From: Bacillota bacterium
Lineage (GTDB): Bacteria > Bacillota > Bacilli > Alicyclobacillales > Alicyclobacillaceae
DNA: 6,092 nt
NCBI GenBank assembly: GCA_021820805.1
Contig: JAKADF010000224.1
Span: 1-6,092 of the forward strand
Direction: 5' to 3'
Each line of letters opens with the position of its first letter. Within the stretch, counting starts at the first letter, position 1. The notes beneath the pieces were generated by a model. That model did not search any database. It was not told the origin of the DNA and saw only the letters and a program-made list of their open reading frames with translations. Positions 1-6,092 of this stretch are shown here, piece by piece. A program made the translations under genes and the position numbers.

Positions 1-215
1 CAGTCGCCATGATGCTAGATTGGCTCGGAGATAAGCACGAACTTCCACAATTGACGAATAGCGCTCGTCTCATAGAACAAGCGGTTTCCTTTGCACTGGA
101 AGATGGCAGCGCACGCACAGTAGACATCGGAGGCCACCAATCGACAGTCGATTCAGGCTCAGCTGTGATAGATAAGATGCTTCAACTTGGAGGAGATCTC
201 AATGGCACAGCGTGA
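1..215 (+). CDS. Isocitrate/isopropylmalate dehydrogenase-family enzyme, C-terminal fragment (5' end outside window)
   Basis: Only about the last 70 residues are visible, read in the frame that begins at base 3 and stops at TGA 213-215. The tail matches the end of the isocitrate/isopropylmalate/tartrate dehydrogenase fold: a hydrophobic AMMLDWLG helix, a helix with AVSFALEDG, then RTVDIGGHQST and a final helix. It corresponds to the RT-x-D-(I/L)-GG ... T-x-(D/E) ... A(V/I) signature at the C terminus of that family. Family members oxidise a 2-hydroxy acid with NAD(P), usually with decarboxylation and a divalent metal. The catalytic and cofactor residues lie upstream of the window, so isopropylmalate, tartrate/malate and other beta-decarboxylating dehydrogenases cannot be told apart. 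The catabolic neighbours make a tartrate- or sugar-acid-type role more likely than leucine biosynthesis, which is inference. Its last 14 nt overlap the next gene. Confidence 0.8.
   Translation, partial: VAMMLDWLGDKHELPQLTNSARLIEQAVSFALEDGSARTVDIGGHQSTVDSGSAVIDKMLQLGGDLNGTA
189..194 (+). promoter_or_regulatory. Shine-Dalgarno GGAGGA that fixes the start of the oxidoreductase at 202
   Basis: GGAGGA ends 7 nt before ATG 202. An in-frame TTG at 187 would put the site inside the gene, so ATG 202 is the better start. The site is inside the coding sequence of the upstream gene, which fits translational coupling. Confidence 0.85.
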
Positions 216-1248
216 ATTACGTGGTATTACGATTGGTGCTGGCCACTTTGCAGACATTCAGTTAGAAGCATGGCAATGCGTAAACGGAGCCAAAATCGTG
301 GGGCTAGTTAGTCGAACCGAATACCGTGCGAAAATTTTAGCAGAAAAGTTTGATATCGGATACGTAAGTACGGATATTGAGGAAGCAATCGATAAACTCC
401 ATCCAGATTTCATTGATATTTGCACGCCGCCGAAATTCCACCTTCATTACGTACAAATTGCAGCAGACCATGGTCTTCCCGTCTTATGTCAGAAGCCGAT
501 TGCACCAACTCAAGAAGAGAGTATGAAGTTGGTAGAAGTTTGTACTAACTGTGGCGTCCCCCTGATGATTAATGAAAACTGGAGGTGGCAGCCATGGTAT
601 CAAGAAACGAAGAAACTACTTGATGAAAATGCACTCGGGGAAATTATTCACATAGATGCGTGTATGCGGCCAGGGGATGGATGGGTAGAAAGCCCATACT
701 CGGATCAACCTTACTTCAAAGACATGGAACGGTTTTTGTTATTTGAAACGGGTATTCACTATTTTGAAACACTACAATTTTTATTTGGCCCTATAAAAAA
801 GGTGTATTGCCAGAGTAGAACCATTAATCCGGTCATAAAAGGCGAAGACTACGTGGTAGCTTTACTGGAATTTAAATCTGGACTCACAGGAATCTACGAT
901 GCGAATCGCGCGGCATACACCGAAAAGGTACGCTCTGAATCCTATGGCTGGGTCCGAATTGAGGGGACAGACGCAAACCTTCGTATTGATTTCGACGGAA
1001 GGATATTTGTGCAAAAGAGAATTGGGAGGGAGGTGGAGCATGACTACTTAAGAGACACAGGCTGGAAAGGAGGAGCTGCTGTAAAAGCGCAACAACATTT
1101 TATTGACTGCCTAGTTGAAAATAAACCTTTCGTTACAGAAGGAACAACCTACCTCCAAAGTCAAAGTGTAGTTTTTTCCTGTTACCAGTCAGCTCAAGAA
1201 GGGATTCCAATAGAAGTACCAACAGCTATTACTATTAAAAATAAGTGA
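202..1248 (+). CDS. Gfo/Idh/MocA-family NAD(P)-dependent oxidoreductase
   Basis: This is a 348-residue protein, the usual length for the family, which oxidises or reduces sugars, inositols or sugar acids with NAD(P) in the cytoplasm. The N-terminal Rossmann fold shows a GAGHFA glycine motif (residues 12-17) and DICTPPKFH (72-80). The family's EKP motif appears as CQKP (96-99): the lysine (K98) is kept but the preceding glutamate is glutamine. The C-terminal domain starts near NENWRWQPWY (124-133) and contains ETGIHYFET (182-190), which aligns with the family's D-x-G-x-H-x-x-D active-site motif. H186 is kept, with Glu at the acidic positions. The start at ATG 202 is set by GGAGGA 7 nt upstream. 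It overlaps the preceding gene by 14 nt, so the two are probably one operon. The family call is firm; the substrate is unknown. Confidence 0.93.
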   Translation: MAQRELRGITIGAGHFADIQLEAWQCVNGAKIVGLVSRTEYRAKILAEKFDIGYVSTDIEEAIDKLHPDFIDICTPPKFHLHYVQIAADHGLPVLCQKPIAPTQEESMKLVEVCTNCGVPLMINENWRWQPWYQETKKLLDENALGEIIHIDACMRPGDGWVESPYSDQPYFKDMERFLLFETGIHYFETLQFLFGPIKKVYCQSRTINPVIKGEDYVVALLEFKSGLTGIYDANRAAYTEKVRSESYGWVRIEGTDANLRIDFDGRIFVQKRIGREVEHDYLRDTGWKGGAAVKAQQHFIDCLVENKPFVTEGTTYLQSQSVVFSCYQSAQEGIPIEVPTAITIKNK

Positions 1249-1297
1249 CATTGCACTGGCTTATAATTGTGTGAGTCAACCTTCGCAAATATATGAC

Positions 1298-1314
1298 TGA
1301 ATATTCTATATTCA
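1298..1314. promoter_or_regulatory. 17-bp inverted repeat upstream of the MFS gene, candidate operator
   Basis: TGAATAT and ATATTCA are perfect 7-bp arms separated by TCT. The repeat ends 10 nt before the Shine-Dalgarno of the transporter. The stem is AT-only apart from one G-C pair and has no U-tract, so it is a poor terminator and more like a dimeric repressor site. A TATAAT hexamer lies upstream at 1262-1267, but no -35 box stands at a normal distance from it. Which regulator might bind is unknown. Confidence 0.35.
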
Positions 1315-1324
1315 ATGACAAATC

Positions 1325-1330
1325 GGAGGT
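1325..1330 (+). promoter_or_regulatory. Shine-Dalgarno GGAGGT fixing the MFS start at 1339
   Basis: GGAGGT lies 8 nt before ATG 1339. An in-frame ATG at 1315 has no ribosome binding site, and starting there would place the GGAGGT inside the gene and add a charged, cysteine-containing extension. ATG 1339 gives the typical short N terminus before the first membrane helix. Confidence 0.85.
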
Positions 1331-1338
1331 GTACCTCT

Positions 1339-2610
1339 ATGAAGCCGAAAATCCACATTGGGTGGATCGTGTTTGTAATTTTCCTAGGAACCATGATGAA
1401 CTATATGGATAGAGTTAATATTTCCTTAACTGGTCCAGCAATTCTTAAAGAATTTGGGTGGACTACTGCAACCCTGGGGGTTCTTTTGTCAAGTTTCTTC
1501 TGGGGATACTTTTTATTGCAAATTCCCGGCGGATGGCTGGCAGACAAGTTCGGCGGACGCCGTGTAATGATTGTGTCTGGGTTTTTGTGGGCAATATTCA
1601 CTGCATTAACAGCCATTCCACGATCTCTAGGACTTTTGATGGGAATACGAGCAGGACTTGGTGCTGGAGAAGCAGTCAATTTCCCTGCAGGCACATCAAT
1701 TTTCGCTCGTTGGCTACCCCCAAAAGTTGTAGCAAGAATACAGGGACTAAATCTTTCTGCTACAGCACTCGGTCCATTGTTCGCCACACCCCTTGCTGTA
1801 TTTCTTATCACTACATGGGGTTGGCGCAGCGTATTTTACTTTTTTGCAATAATAAGTGCCGTTTGGGCAATTGCATTTTGGGCCGTAACCAAGCGGGCAG
1901 GTTTGAATGATATTCCTGATAAGGAAAAATTAACCGATACAGTAGTTCAAGTTTCACAAACAAAAGATTTCATGGAAAAGCCATTGTCCTCCATAGAGGT
2001 TTGGGGTTCATCAATGGCCTGGTTTTCTAATAGCTATGTATTCTATTTTCTAATTACATTCTTACCAACATATTTTATAAAAGCACAACATGTCTCTGTT
2101 CAAAGCCTAGATATTCTTGGAACAGTCCCTTGGCTAGTTCTGTTTATAATGATGAACGTAGCAGGGTGGATCTCGGATTATATTGGAAGGGTATCAACGC
2201 ACTCCATATTCTGGAGACGGATGATTTATGCAGGAGCATTTGTTTGGGCGGGTATTTTCATGTTCCTTGCTAAAGGTGCGACAAGTGGTACTTCAGCAGC
2301 TATTTTAATTTCACTCGCAGTCGCGGGGTTGGCTTTTACGTGGCCGATTGCTTGGTCCCTGCCAGTCATTTATTCACATAGCAAGGCGGGAGTTTTGAGC
2401 GGATTTATGAACGCATGGGGGCAAGTTGCGGGAATTCTGGCACCTATTGTTACCGGAGTCGTTGCATCAACCGGAAACTGGAGTCTTGCGTTTATCTGGG
2501 TCGCTGTCTTTTCTCTCCTCGGGGCTGTACTCGTAGCTGGTACAACAAAGCGTAGAACTGATAGGAATTATATAACTCACACGGAAAAAAATACAGCAGC
2601 AAATTCATAA
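1339..2610 (+). CDS. MFS transporter, anion:cation symporter-like (hexuronate/aldonate type)
   Basis: This 423-residue integral membrane protein has the size and hydrophobicity pattern of a 12-helix major facilitator. The first helix runs into NYMDRVN (residues 21-27), a hallmark of the anion:cation symporter group that includes glucarate, galactonate and hexuronate carriers. The loop between helices 2 and 3 carries the MFS signature GWLADKFGGRR (65-75). GAGEAVNFPA (108-117) and GWRSVFY (161-167) are also typical of this group. A hydrophilic stretch around residues 190-215 is the central cytoplasmic loop, followed by the second six-helix bundle and a polar C-terminal tail. It probably imports an organic anion such as a sugar acid with H+ or Na+. 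It follows the oxidoreductase by 90 bp, and the next gene starts 16 nt after its stop. The substrate is inferred only from family and neighbours. Confidence 0.92.
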   Translation: MKPKIHIGWIVFVIFLGTMMNYMDRVNISLTGPAILKEFGWTTATLGVLLSSFFWGYFLLQIPGGWLADKFGGRRVMIVSGFLWAIFTALTAIPRSLGLLMGIRAGLGAGEAVNFPAGTSIFARWLPPKVVARIQGLNLSATALGPLFATPLAVFLITTWGWRSVFYFFAIISAVWAIAFWAVTKRAGLNDIPDKEKLTDTVVQVSQTKDFMEKPLSSIEVWGSSMAWFSNSYVFYFLITFLPTYFIKAQHVSVQSLDILGTVPWLVLFIMMNVAGWISDYIGRVSTHSIFWRRMIYAGAFVWAGIFMFLAKGATSGTSAAILISLAVAGLAFTWPIAWSLPVIYSHSKAGVLSGFMNAWGQVAGILAPIVTGVVASTGNWSLAFIWVAVFSLLGAVLVAGTTKRRTDRNYITHTEKNTAANS

Positions 2611-2992: not shown

Positions 2993-3358
2993 AGGGTCGG
3001 ACATACGAGTAACTGATAGAGAGGTGACACGCCTACCGCAAACTATTTTGAAACAAGCGCAATCATTAGAGGATTTTGATGGATTCTTGTCAGAAAACGG
3101 CACATACGACCACACCGATAAAAAGTCAACCAAGGTTGTCATGAAGGGACTTTCCAATTGCAGGTTAACTACTTTTGGGAGAGTCCCTTAATATTAGAAT
3201 TTCTGATTTGGCATACTTTTTTGACTAACTAGTAACTTGTTGCAAGGAGTTAGCGTATTGGCAGAGAAAATATATGGAAGTTGTATTTGTCCATGAAGAA
3301 ATTTCCTATGGAAGCTGTTACAACAAGGATAAACACACTATAAAAGGAAGTGTATTTA
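2993..3358. other. 366-bp intergenic region with a short unassigned frame and a hairpin
   Basis: No recognisable gene is present. One + strand frame stays open to TAA 3189-3191. Its only plausible starts are weak, such as GTG 3024, which would give 55 residues including REVTRLPQTILKQAQ and EDFDGFLSENGTYDH. I do not recognise the product, and the ribosome binding site is poor. The stem-loop at 3144-3189 overlaps its end. Further on, an AAGGAG (3244-3249) stands 8 nt before TTG 3258, but that frame stops after 12 codons. A TTGACT at 3221-3226 resembles a -35 box but has no matching -10. The region may hold a decayed gene plus the control region of the downstream dehydrogenase. Confidence 0.4.
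3144..3189. repeat. Inverted repeat/hairpin with 12-bp stem between the VOC and dehydrogenase genes
   Basis: The arm 3144-3155 (AAGGGACTTTCC) pairs with 3178-3189 (GGAGAGTCCCTT) over 12 positions with one G-U pair, leaving a 22-nt loop. Neither strand shows a U-tract right after the stem, so it is not a standard intrinsic terminator. It could be an operator, an mRNA-end stabiliser or a weak terminator for the upstream operon. Confidence 0.5.
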
Positions 3359-4384: not shown

Positions 4385-4416
4385 GGTATATTCAGTCTAG
4401 AAACGATTATTTCCTC

Positions 4417-4516
4417 CTTTGGTGTTTTCTCTGCAGCGCAGCTAGGTTTATTCTTGAGGGAATCCTTAGAGGATTCTTTACTTATGATGGGAATACTTCT
4501 AGCTGCGCAACCAAAG
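4417..4516. repeat. Large imperfect stem-loop in the dehydrogenase-SDR intergenic gap
   Basis: A 10-bp perfect stem (4436-4445, GCGCAGCTAG, with 4499-4508) is continued outward, after a 12-nt bulge on the left and 1 nt on the right, by CTTTGGT 4417-4423 with ACCAAAG 4510-4516. Inside is a second hairpin, GAATCC 4460-4465 with GGATTC 4471-4476 (loop TTAGA), extended by three further pairs including two G-U. ATTT/AAAT (4409-4412 with 4517-4520) may close the foot. The 7-bp direct repeats TAGAAAC flank it at 4398-4404 and 4521-4527. No U-tract follows. It could be a small non-autonomous mobile repeat, a structured RNA or an mRNA-end structure. Confidence 0.6.
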
Positions 4517-4585
4517 AAATTAGAAACTCTGATGACACCATTAACTTTTAGATAAAAAATGGATGTTAATTATCGACCATATAAC

Positions 4586-5580: not shown

Positions 5581-5820
5581 AAAAGACTAGTTGAAATAAT
5601 GTAGACTTCTACTATCTCTATAAAGAAGAAACTGTATAAAAATTCGGCCACCCTTACATAACGTCCTTTGATAAGCCTGTCTCCCAACTCTCAATCCTCT
5701 ACCGGTGTTCAAAAAAGTTTGCGTTTTTGTACTTAAAGTGAGAAATAACCAAAGTCATGAAAATGCGGTTATCGAATACAAACATTTGTAGGAGGGTTAT
5801 AAAGAGTTTGCAATTGTTCT
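5581..5820. other. 240-bp non-coding stretch between the SDR gene and the structured leader
   Basis: No gene is supported. A short palindrome GTAGA-CT-TCTAC (5601-5612) follows the SDR stop but has no U-tract, so no intrinsic terminator is clear. ATAACC 5745-5750 and GGTTAT 5767-5772 form an inverted repeat, and GGTTAT recurs at 5795-5800. GGAGGG at 5791-5796 looks like a ribosome binding site but is followed only by a five-codon frame, TTG 5808 to TAA 5823-5825. Confidence 0.5.
5777..5790. promoter_or_regulatory. Palindrome TACAAA-CA-TTTGTA, candidate operator
   Basis: Perfect 6-bp arms surround a 2-nt centre. TATAAA at 5798-5803 could be a -10 box. If so, the palindrome would cover its -35 region, where no good -35 hexamer exists, and transcription would start near 5810, just before the structured leader. 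It lacks the central CG of LacI/CcpA-type sites. The bound factor is unknown. Confidence 0.35.
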
Positions 5821-5826
5821 ATTAAG

Positions 5827-5996
5827 CCCCCCAATTCATTTGGGCACTCTCTCGAGTTCATTTTTGAACTATGAAAGTATGAGACGTGCCCTTATGGGTG
5901 ACGTAATGAGTACTTAAGCAGAATGAACTCGATGAGCAAGTACCGAAATGAGAAGTGATGCTAAGGCAATCGTGAAATTGGGGGGAGGGAGTAAAG
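5827..5996 (+). ncRNA. Candidate cis-regulatory structured leader RNA masking the downstream ribosome binding site
   Basis: The outer helix pairs CCCCCCAATT 5827-5836 perfectly with AATTGGGGGG 5976-5985, which overlaps the Shine-Dalgarno of the gene starting at TTG 5997. Inside it, GGGCAC 5842-5847 can pair with GTGCCC 5886-5891. AGTTCA 5855-5860 can pair either with TGAACT 5865-5870 (4-nt loop) or, as a longer 13-position helix from 5852-5864, with 5920-5932. GTACTT 5910-5915 can pair with AAGTAC 5938-5943. CCCAA 5830-5834 can pair with TTGGG 5840-5844, which would free the ribosome binding site. The motif ATGAG occurs four times (5879, 5906, 5932, 5948). No T-box, TPP, SAM, cobalamin, lysine, glycine, purine or FMN hallmark is seen. 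The alternative is that these are terminal structures of a mobile element whose gene begins at 5997. Confidence 0.5.
5984..5988 (+). promoter_or_regulatory. Shine-Dalgarno GGAGG within GGGGGGAGGG, deciding a TTG start at 5997
   Basis: The core lies 8 nt before TTG 5997. The preceding in-frame stop is TGA 5973-5975, and no other usable start lies between, so TTG is the only start for this frame. The first two bases of the site are part of the leader's outer helix. Confidence 0.6.
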
Positions 5997-6092
5997 TTGG
6001 CTTTCAAATTAGCAAAGTTCAATGACTTCTTTACCTTTAAAACGTACCTTGGCGAGGAAGATATTAGGTTCCATGCAGGAAATATCAATACC
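5997..6092 (+). CDS. Unidentified protein, N-terminal 32 residues (3' end outside window)
   Basis: The frame is open from TTG 5997 to the end of the window. It is supported by a very strong Shine-Dalgarno at ideal distance. The visible residues include AFKLAKFNDFFTFKTYLG and then GEEDIRFHAGNIN, a mixed, soluble-looking N terminus without a signal peptide or membrane segment. I do not recognise the family. Because it follows a candidate switchable leader, its expression may be controlled at translation. It could be another pathway enzyme, a regulator, or the protein of a mobile element. The minus strand across 5858-6088 is also open, but its translation is serine/histidine-rich and family-less, and it has no visible upstream context because the window ends there. 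Confidence 0.5.
   Translation, partial: MAFKLAKFNDFFTFKTYLGEEDIRFHAGNINT

Follow-up and report, generated by a model that had tools for sequence, protein, structure and literature searches.

The sequence in front of the last open frame of the window (the whole stretch of 6,092 nucleotides that was analysed) has a riboswitch-like layout, and the original prediction had proposed a translational riboswitch or a protein-controlled leader. Our results indicate that this reading yields to a different one, in which the terminus of a mobile element pairs with the start signal of the frame; regulation in the window copy is hypothetical. We place at about 0.5 the probability of the whole statement, function included, that the end of a mobile element folds back over the start signal and impairs translation when the RNA comes from outside. 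The argument is built on the following features.

5819-5847, + strand: stretch homologous to the left end of IS1447-like elements of the IS3 family (29.0 bits, profile of seven ends found via OrfB homology)
5827-5836, + strand: 5' arm of the outer helix, CCCCCCAATT, exact complement of 5976-5985
5836-5951, + strand: long imperfect hairpin inside the outer helix (pair probabilities)
5852-5862, + strand: 5' arm of a nested perfect 11-bp repeat (inverted-repeat search)
5922-5932, + strand: 3' arm of the nested perfect 11-bp repeat (inverted-repeat search)
5956-5972, + strand: small hairpin separating the long one from the 3' arm (pair probabilities)
5976-5985, + strand: 3' arm of the outer helix, AATTGGGGGG
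5984-5988, + strand: Shine-Dalgarno GGAGG, 8 nt before the TTG at 5997 (read from the sequence)
5997-6092, + strand: start of an open frame of 32 codons that begins with TTG and runs off the contig; relatives not found

The outer helix had been described as two exactly complementary arms, 139 nt apart, of which the second runs into the GGAGG of the TTG frame at 5997. Arms, coordinates and gap all proved exact: the helix is a perfect 10 bp, and its 3' arm overlaps the GGAGG by two bases, both G. Taken alone, such a helix is weak evidence, as 1.48 perfect inverted repeats of at least 10 bp within 250 nt are expected per shuffled window (100 shuffles). Two repeats of such size within 5581-6005 are rare. 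The real sequence holds two, the second being the 11-bp repeat nested inside the outer helix, and among 2000 shuffles of this region at least one was found in 7.9% and two or more in 0.35%.

As evidence, the fold outweighs the inverted repeat; the structure is real and not a product of chance. Positions 5800-6005 fold at -67.2 kcal/mol (z -4.37; 0 of 200 shuffles were as low) with a closing stem that reaches the Shine-Dalgarno, in agreement with the original prediction. That proposal also had the outer stem enclose several inner stems; the closed outer stem was recovered, but its interior is made up of a single long, imperfect hairpin plus a small one. Of the ten outer pairs, eight had a probability above 0.9 in folds from 5827-5985 up to 5800-6092, and the remaining two, which are the inner ones, reached 0.78 and 0.23 in the same folds; once 5740-6092 was folded, the probability of the outer stem was only ~0.5. 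The stretch 5827-5986, which we positioned on the feature, gave z-scores of -6.2 on the + strand and -7.8 on the - strand (60 shuffles each), the lowest among 200 tests of 160-nt stretches. Folding is about equally good on the - and + strands, so it is by itself no argument for an RNA rather than a DNA palindrome.

The identity of the 5' arm came from homology. A blastn search with 5800-5996 among 398 genomes of the phylum gave two matches (5817-5846 and 5818-5846, each 90% identical), which alone are worth little because a search of the class gave chance matches of similar strength. Both matches fall at the left end of a single IS3-like element, and each alignment starts within one base of the point where the insertion sites diverge. 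A pattern of that end with at most three mismatches was found at 34 places in 20 of 124 genomes, compared with 3 for the reversed control pattern, and by eye an IS3-type OrfA start followed the end in 20 of the 30 loci examined. Because this pattern had been drawn from the window, elements were sought instead by OrfB homology, in plasmids (7 of the 40 listed matches taken) and in viral contigs (5 of 38 loci). This gave seven distinct left ends that had not been collected by likeness to the window. With their profile, the 29-nt stretch 5819-5847, which contains the 5' arm of the helix, scored 29.0 bits; the best score among 19.9 million random positions was 21.9 bits, and the seven ends themselves scored 16.3-41.3 bits when each was left out in turn. 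No second end-like site scored above 8.9 bits, the next best value, within the window, which stops at 6092. We therefore regard 5819-5847 as very probably homologous to an IS3-type left end, a well-supported assignment. The collected elements resemble the IS1447 subgroup and, by our own assignment, probably belong to it. IS1447 is an IS3-family subgroup in Firmicutes whose repeats are reported to start with 5'-TA and to measure 49 and 48 bp (PMC6211511); the window terminus, TATTAAGCCCCC...TTTGG, is alike in this respect.

To examine pairing between ends and start signals, we assembled 21 leaders: 13 pattern loci, one locus from the phylum blastn search (L026), four plasmid elements and three viral elements. 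The 13 were retained from the 30 pattern loci examined by eye (of 34 places). Nine had been dropped as further copies or contig ends of the same element (L031, L033, L043, L052, L053, L056, L057, L059, L060), two as degenerate (L035, L055), five as not element-like (L037, L041, L042, L044, L049) and one as too short (L039). Of the seven plasmid matches, one was the same element as L062 (L065) and two had no left end (L064, L067), and two of the five viral loci (L068, L069) were again the L062 element. Three leaders were retained despite damage, one with an early stop in OrfA (L054) and two truncated (L046, L051). In L062, which comes from a B. subtilis plasmid, and in L065 (552-619), the Shine-Dalgarno region comes close to being the terminus in inverted form (AGCCCCCTTATTTGG vs AGCCCCCTAATGAATTTGG).

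The Shine-Dalgarno paired with the first 30 nt of the element with a probability above 0.5 in 17 of the 21 leaders, and in 5 of the 7 found through protein homology; the exceptions were L038, L046, L066 and L072. With shuffled ends such pairing occurred in 75 of 420 cases (18%), and when flanking sequence from outside replaced the end, in 22 of 200. Cognate duplexes between end and Shine-Dalgarno region were stronger than permuted ones, with 0 of 20,000 permutations as good (n=21) and p 0.014 in a first run (n=14, lacking L054, L061 and L063); the L062 and L071 leaders are 90% alike, and the permutation statistics otherwise ignore relatedness. The two regions change in complementary fashion, as TAAG/CTTA, TAAT/ATTA and TAAC/GTTA. 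The original prediction had looked to compensatory changes among homologues of the downstream gene; we found no such homologues, and the changes are seen among insertion-sequence ends instead. Between the arms, most relatives carry a promoter-like pair (TGGACA or similar, 16-18 nt, TATAAT or similar), picked by a best-score scan for which no null was computed, and a transcript beginning at this pair would not contain the 5' arm. The mean unpaired probability of the Shine-Dalgarno was 0.11 in the full leader and 0.62 when the leader was made to start 14 nt upstream of it, a start point of our choosing. In three leaders the Shine-Dalgarno was mostly closed even without the end (unpaired 0.13 in L034, 0.20 in L054 and 0.31 in L047); these three, like the four in which end and Shine-Dalgarno do not pair, count against fold-back. 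Fold-back across the group, with covariation between end and Shine-Dalgarno, is a more interesting result than the single copy in the window.

Like these relatives, the window has the terminus and, after it, a Shine-Dalgarno region complementary to it, with a C-G pair where most relatives have T-A, and its own pairing ranked first when compared with 14 other ends and 14 other Shine-Dalgarno regions. It differs from them in several ways. The loop is 139 nt long, compared with 23-59 in relatives, and the frame starts 177 nt from 5820, whereas in the group OrfA begins 68-85 nt away from the end. Between the arms, the highest-scoring promoter-like pair reached 7, against 8.5-11.5 in the 21 relatives (again in the scan without a null), and a separate scan gave no + strand site there. 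A transposase should be easily found, yet tblastn with two OrfA and two OrfB proteins gave nothing significant in the window, of which 274 nt are available inside the element. Finally, the Shine-Dalgarno was unpaired at 0.07-0.14 with the terminus and at just 0.29 after its removal; it stays mostly closed by pairing with the beginning of the frame. Together with the folding of the - strand, the absence of OrfA and OrfB, the long loop, the weak promoter and this residual closure count against fold-back in the window copy. The differences from relatives imply either that the element carries another gene, as in the reading we prefer, or that it is a remnant or miniature element. By contrast, the contig ends 274 nt inside what would be a repeated element, which looks like an assembly break and was counted in favour of the fold-back reading.

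Under the fold-back reading, the 5' arm would lie within a terminus that shares homology with IS1447-like left ends, and the element would sit downstream of a sugar-metabolism gene cluster in a relative of Alicyclobacillus. In RNA entering the element from outside, the terminus would pair with the sequence leading into the first frame's Shine-Dalgarno and hinder translation of that frame. The element's own RNA, which in relatives would start between the arms and so lack the 5' arm, would be translated. For the window, we infer that transcripts enter from upstream, that translation is lowered and that the 5997 frame belongs to the element.

Such an arrangement is known from IS10 and IS50, in which the terminus pairs with the transposase start in outside RNA while the element's own RNA starts inside the element. 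The window terminus likewise pairs at a start signal, through the 10-bp helix overlapping GGAGG, but IS10 and IS50 belong to other transposase families and the window shows neither a transposase nor an internal promoter. In the 5' UTR of IS200 tnpA, a stem-loop is reported to hide the ribosome-binding site and to inhibit transposase translation; the likeness lies in the hidden site, whereas the family is a different one and the structure lies in the element's own transcript (PMC12594629). Similarly, a 5' UTR structure is reported to limit transposase translation in ISPpu9, which differs in being an element of the IS110/IS492 family with no clear terminal repeats and in having its structure opened by an antisense RNA (PMC8450116). 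A literature search, with most subscription journals outside its scope, returned no report of fold-back of this kind in IS3-family elements. We suggest as a general rule that in IS1447-like elements a single C-rich terminus appears to play three roles: it is the left inverted repeat, contributes to the OrfA promoter and acts as an anti-Shine-Dalgarno sequence against outside transcription. A riboswitch-like layout that may be explained as the end of a mobile element would be a trap for leader searches.

The main competitor of the fold-back reading, to which we give a serious though clearly smaller chance, is a miniature inverted-repeat element or a decayed IS1447-like remnant with no regulation at all. 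Here the arms would pair because both are ends of one element, and the next gene would borrow the G-run as its Shine-Dalgarno. A homologous end with no transposase is what this predicts, as are arms that mirror each other over ~40 nt (one with 24 nt extra) and strands that fold alike; the IS1447 ends, reported as long and imperfect at 49 and 48 bp (PMC6211511), would also agree with it. Shortened derivatives of the group do exist, because one relative (L046) is an internally deleted IS3-type element in which the start of OrfA is fused to an OrfB-like end. Against it, the right side stops mirroring TATTAAG past AATTGGGGGG, no target duplication was seen by eye next to 5985 or 5993, and a well-spaced Shine-Dalgarno and an open frame follow directly. 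It is unlikely, in our estimate, that IS1447-type ends carry an unrelated novel gene as a passenger, locked by the enlarged fold-back unless transcription starts inside.

A strong fold with a closing stem at the Shine-Dalgarno makes translational control a sensible guess, and this part of the original prediction stands. Its attribution to a new class of host riboswitch or protein-controlled leader is now improbable, since the 5' arm belongs to an insertion-sequence end, Rfam 15 covariance models gave 0 matches to the leader up to E 1, just as no known class had been recognised before, and Rfam, blastn, a one-sequence covariance model and searches in plasmids and phages gave no relative of the leader as a whole. 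Blastn with the leader gave short matches only, in 1 of 41 genomes of the family, 4 of 398 of the class and 2 of 398 of the phylum. A covariance-model search for homologous leaders, which the original prediction had suggested, came back empty (model R1; 0 of 59 and 0 of 398 genomes, and 0 of 1 at E 10); this proves little, because R1 was built from the leader sequence entered twice and is an untested, single-sequence model. Pure accident, in both the inverted repeat and the likeness to an insertion-sequence end, we consider barely credible: a 10-bp helix is expected somewhere in the window at random and the first blastn matches were no stronger than others judged accidental, but the fold z-scores and a profile score above every null position argue otherwise.

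Other candidates were set aside. A known RNA class was ruled out by the Rfam result, and a tRNA reading and a plasmid or phage homologue of the leader were tried and rejected. On reading, blastn matches L004 and L005-L008 were judged to be chance, as were viral pattern matches L023 and L027-L030, one of which is a phage hairpin. The layout of a retron or type III toxin-antitoxin system was also rejected, with a long hairpin first, no tandem array and a frame without a family match.

Searches of Pfam, NCBIfam, PADLOC, PHROGs and PDB gave no match to the last frame, and neither did tblastn against plasmids and phages or a padded protein search covering lengths of ~153-488 residues; peptide matches in 35 of 398 genomes (E up to 1) were judged to be chance after 12 loci had been read. 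Upstream, window positions 6-2546 align to the Alicyclobacillus tolerans genome at 72%, the MFS transporter is 88% identical to one in that species, and synteny ends after the MFS gene. Positions 3-2607 are collinear with A. tolerans (L010) and hold the end of an isopropylmalate-dehydrogenase-like gene, a Gfo/Idh oxidoreductase and the MFS transporter; the order of the VOC, alcohol dehydrogenase and epimerase genes after 2607 differs in that species. The epimerase has an 83% identical counterpart on another contig (P0002, 5093 bases). The gap between the VOC and alcohol dehydrogenase genes (2993-3358) comprises ~370 nt without a clear gene and has an ordinary fold (z -1.22). A second imperfect palindrome (z -3.54, no T-run) lies between the alcohol dehydrogenase and epimerase genes at 4417-4522, and blastn with 4400-4540 in 59 genomes gave one weak match (L024). 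Upstream of the element end, an operator-like palindrome (TACAAA-CA-TTTGTA, 5777-5790) directly precedes TATAAA.
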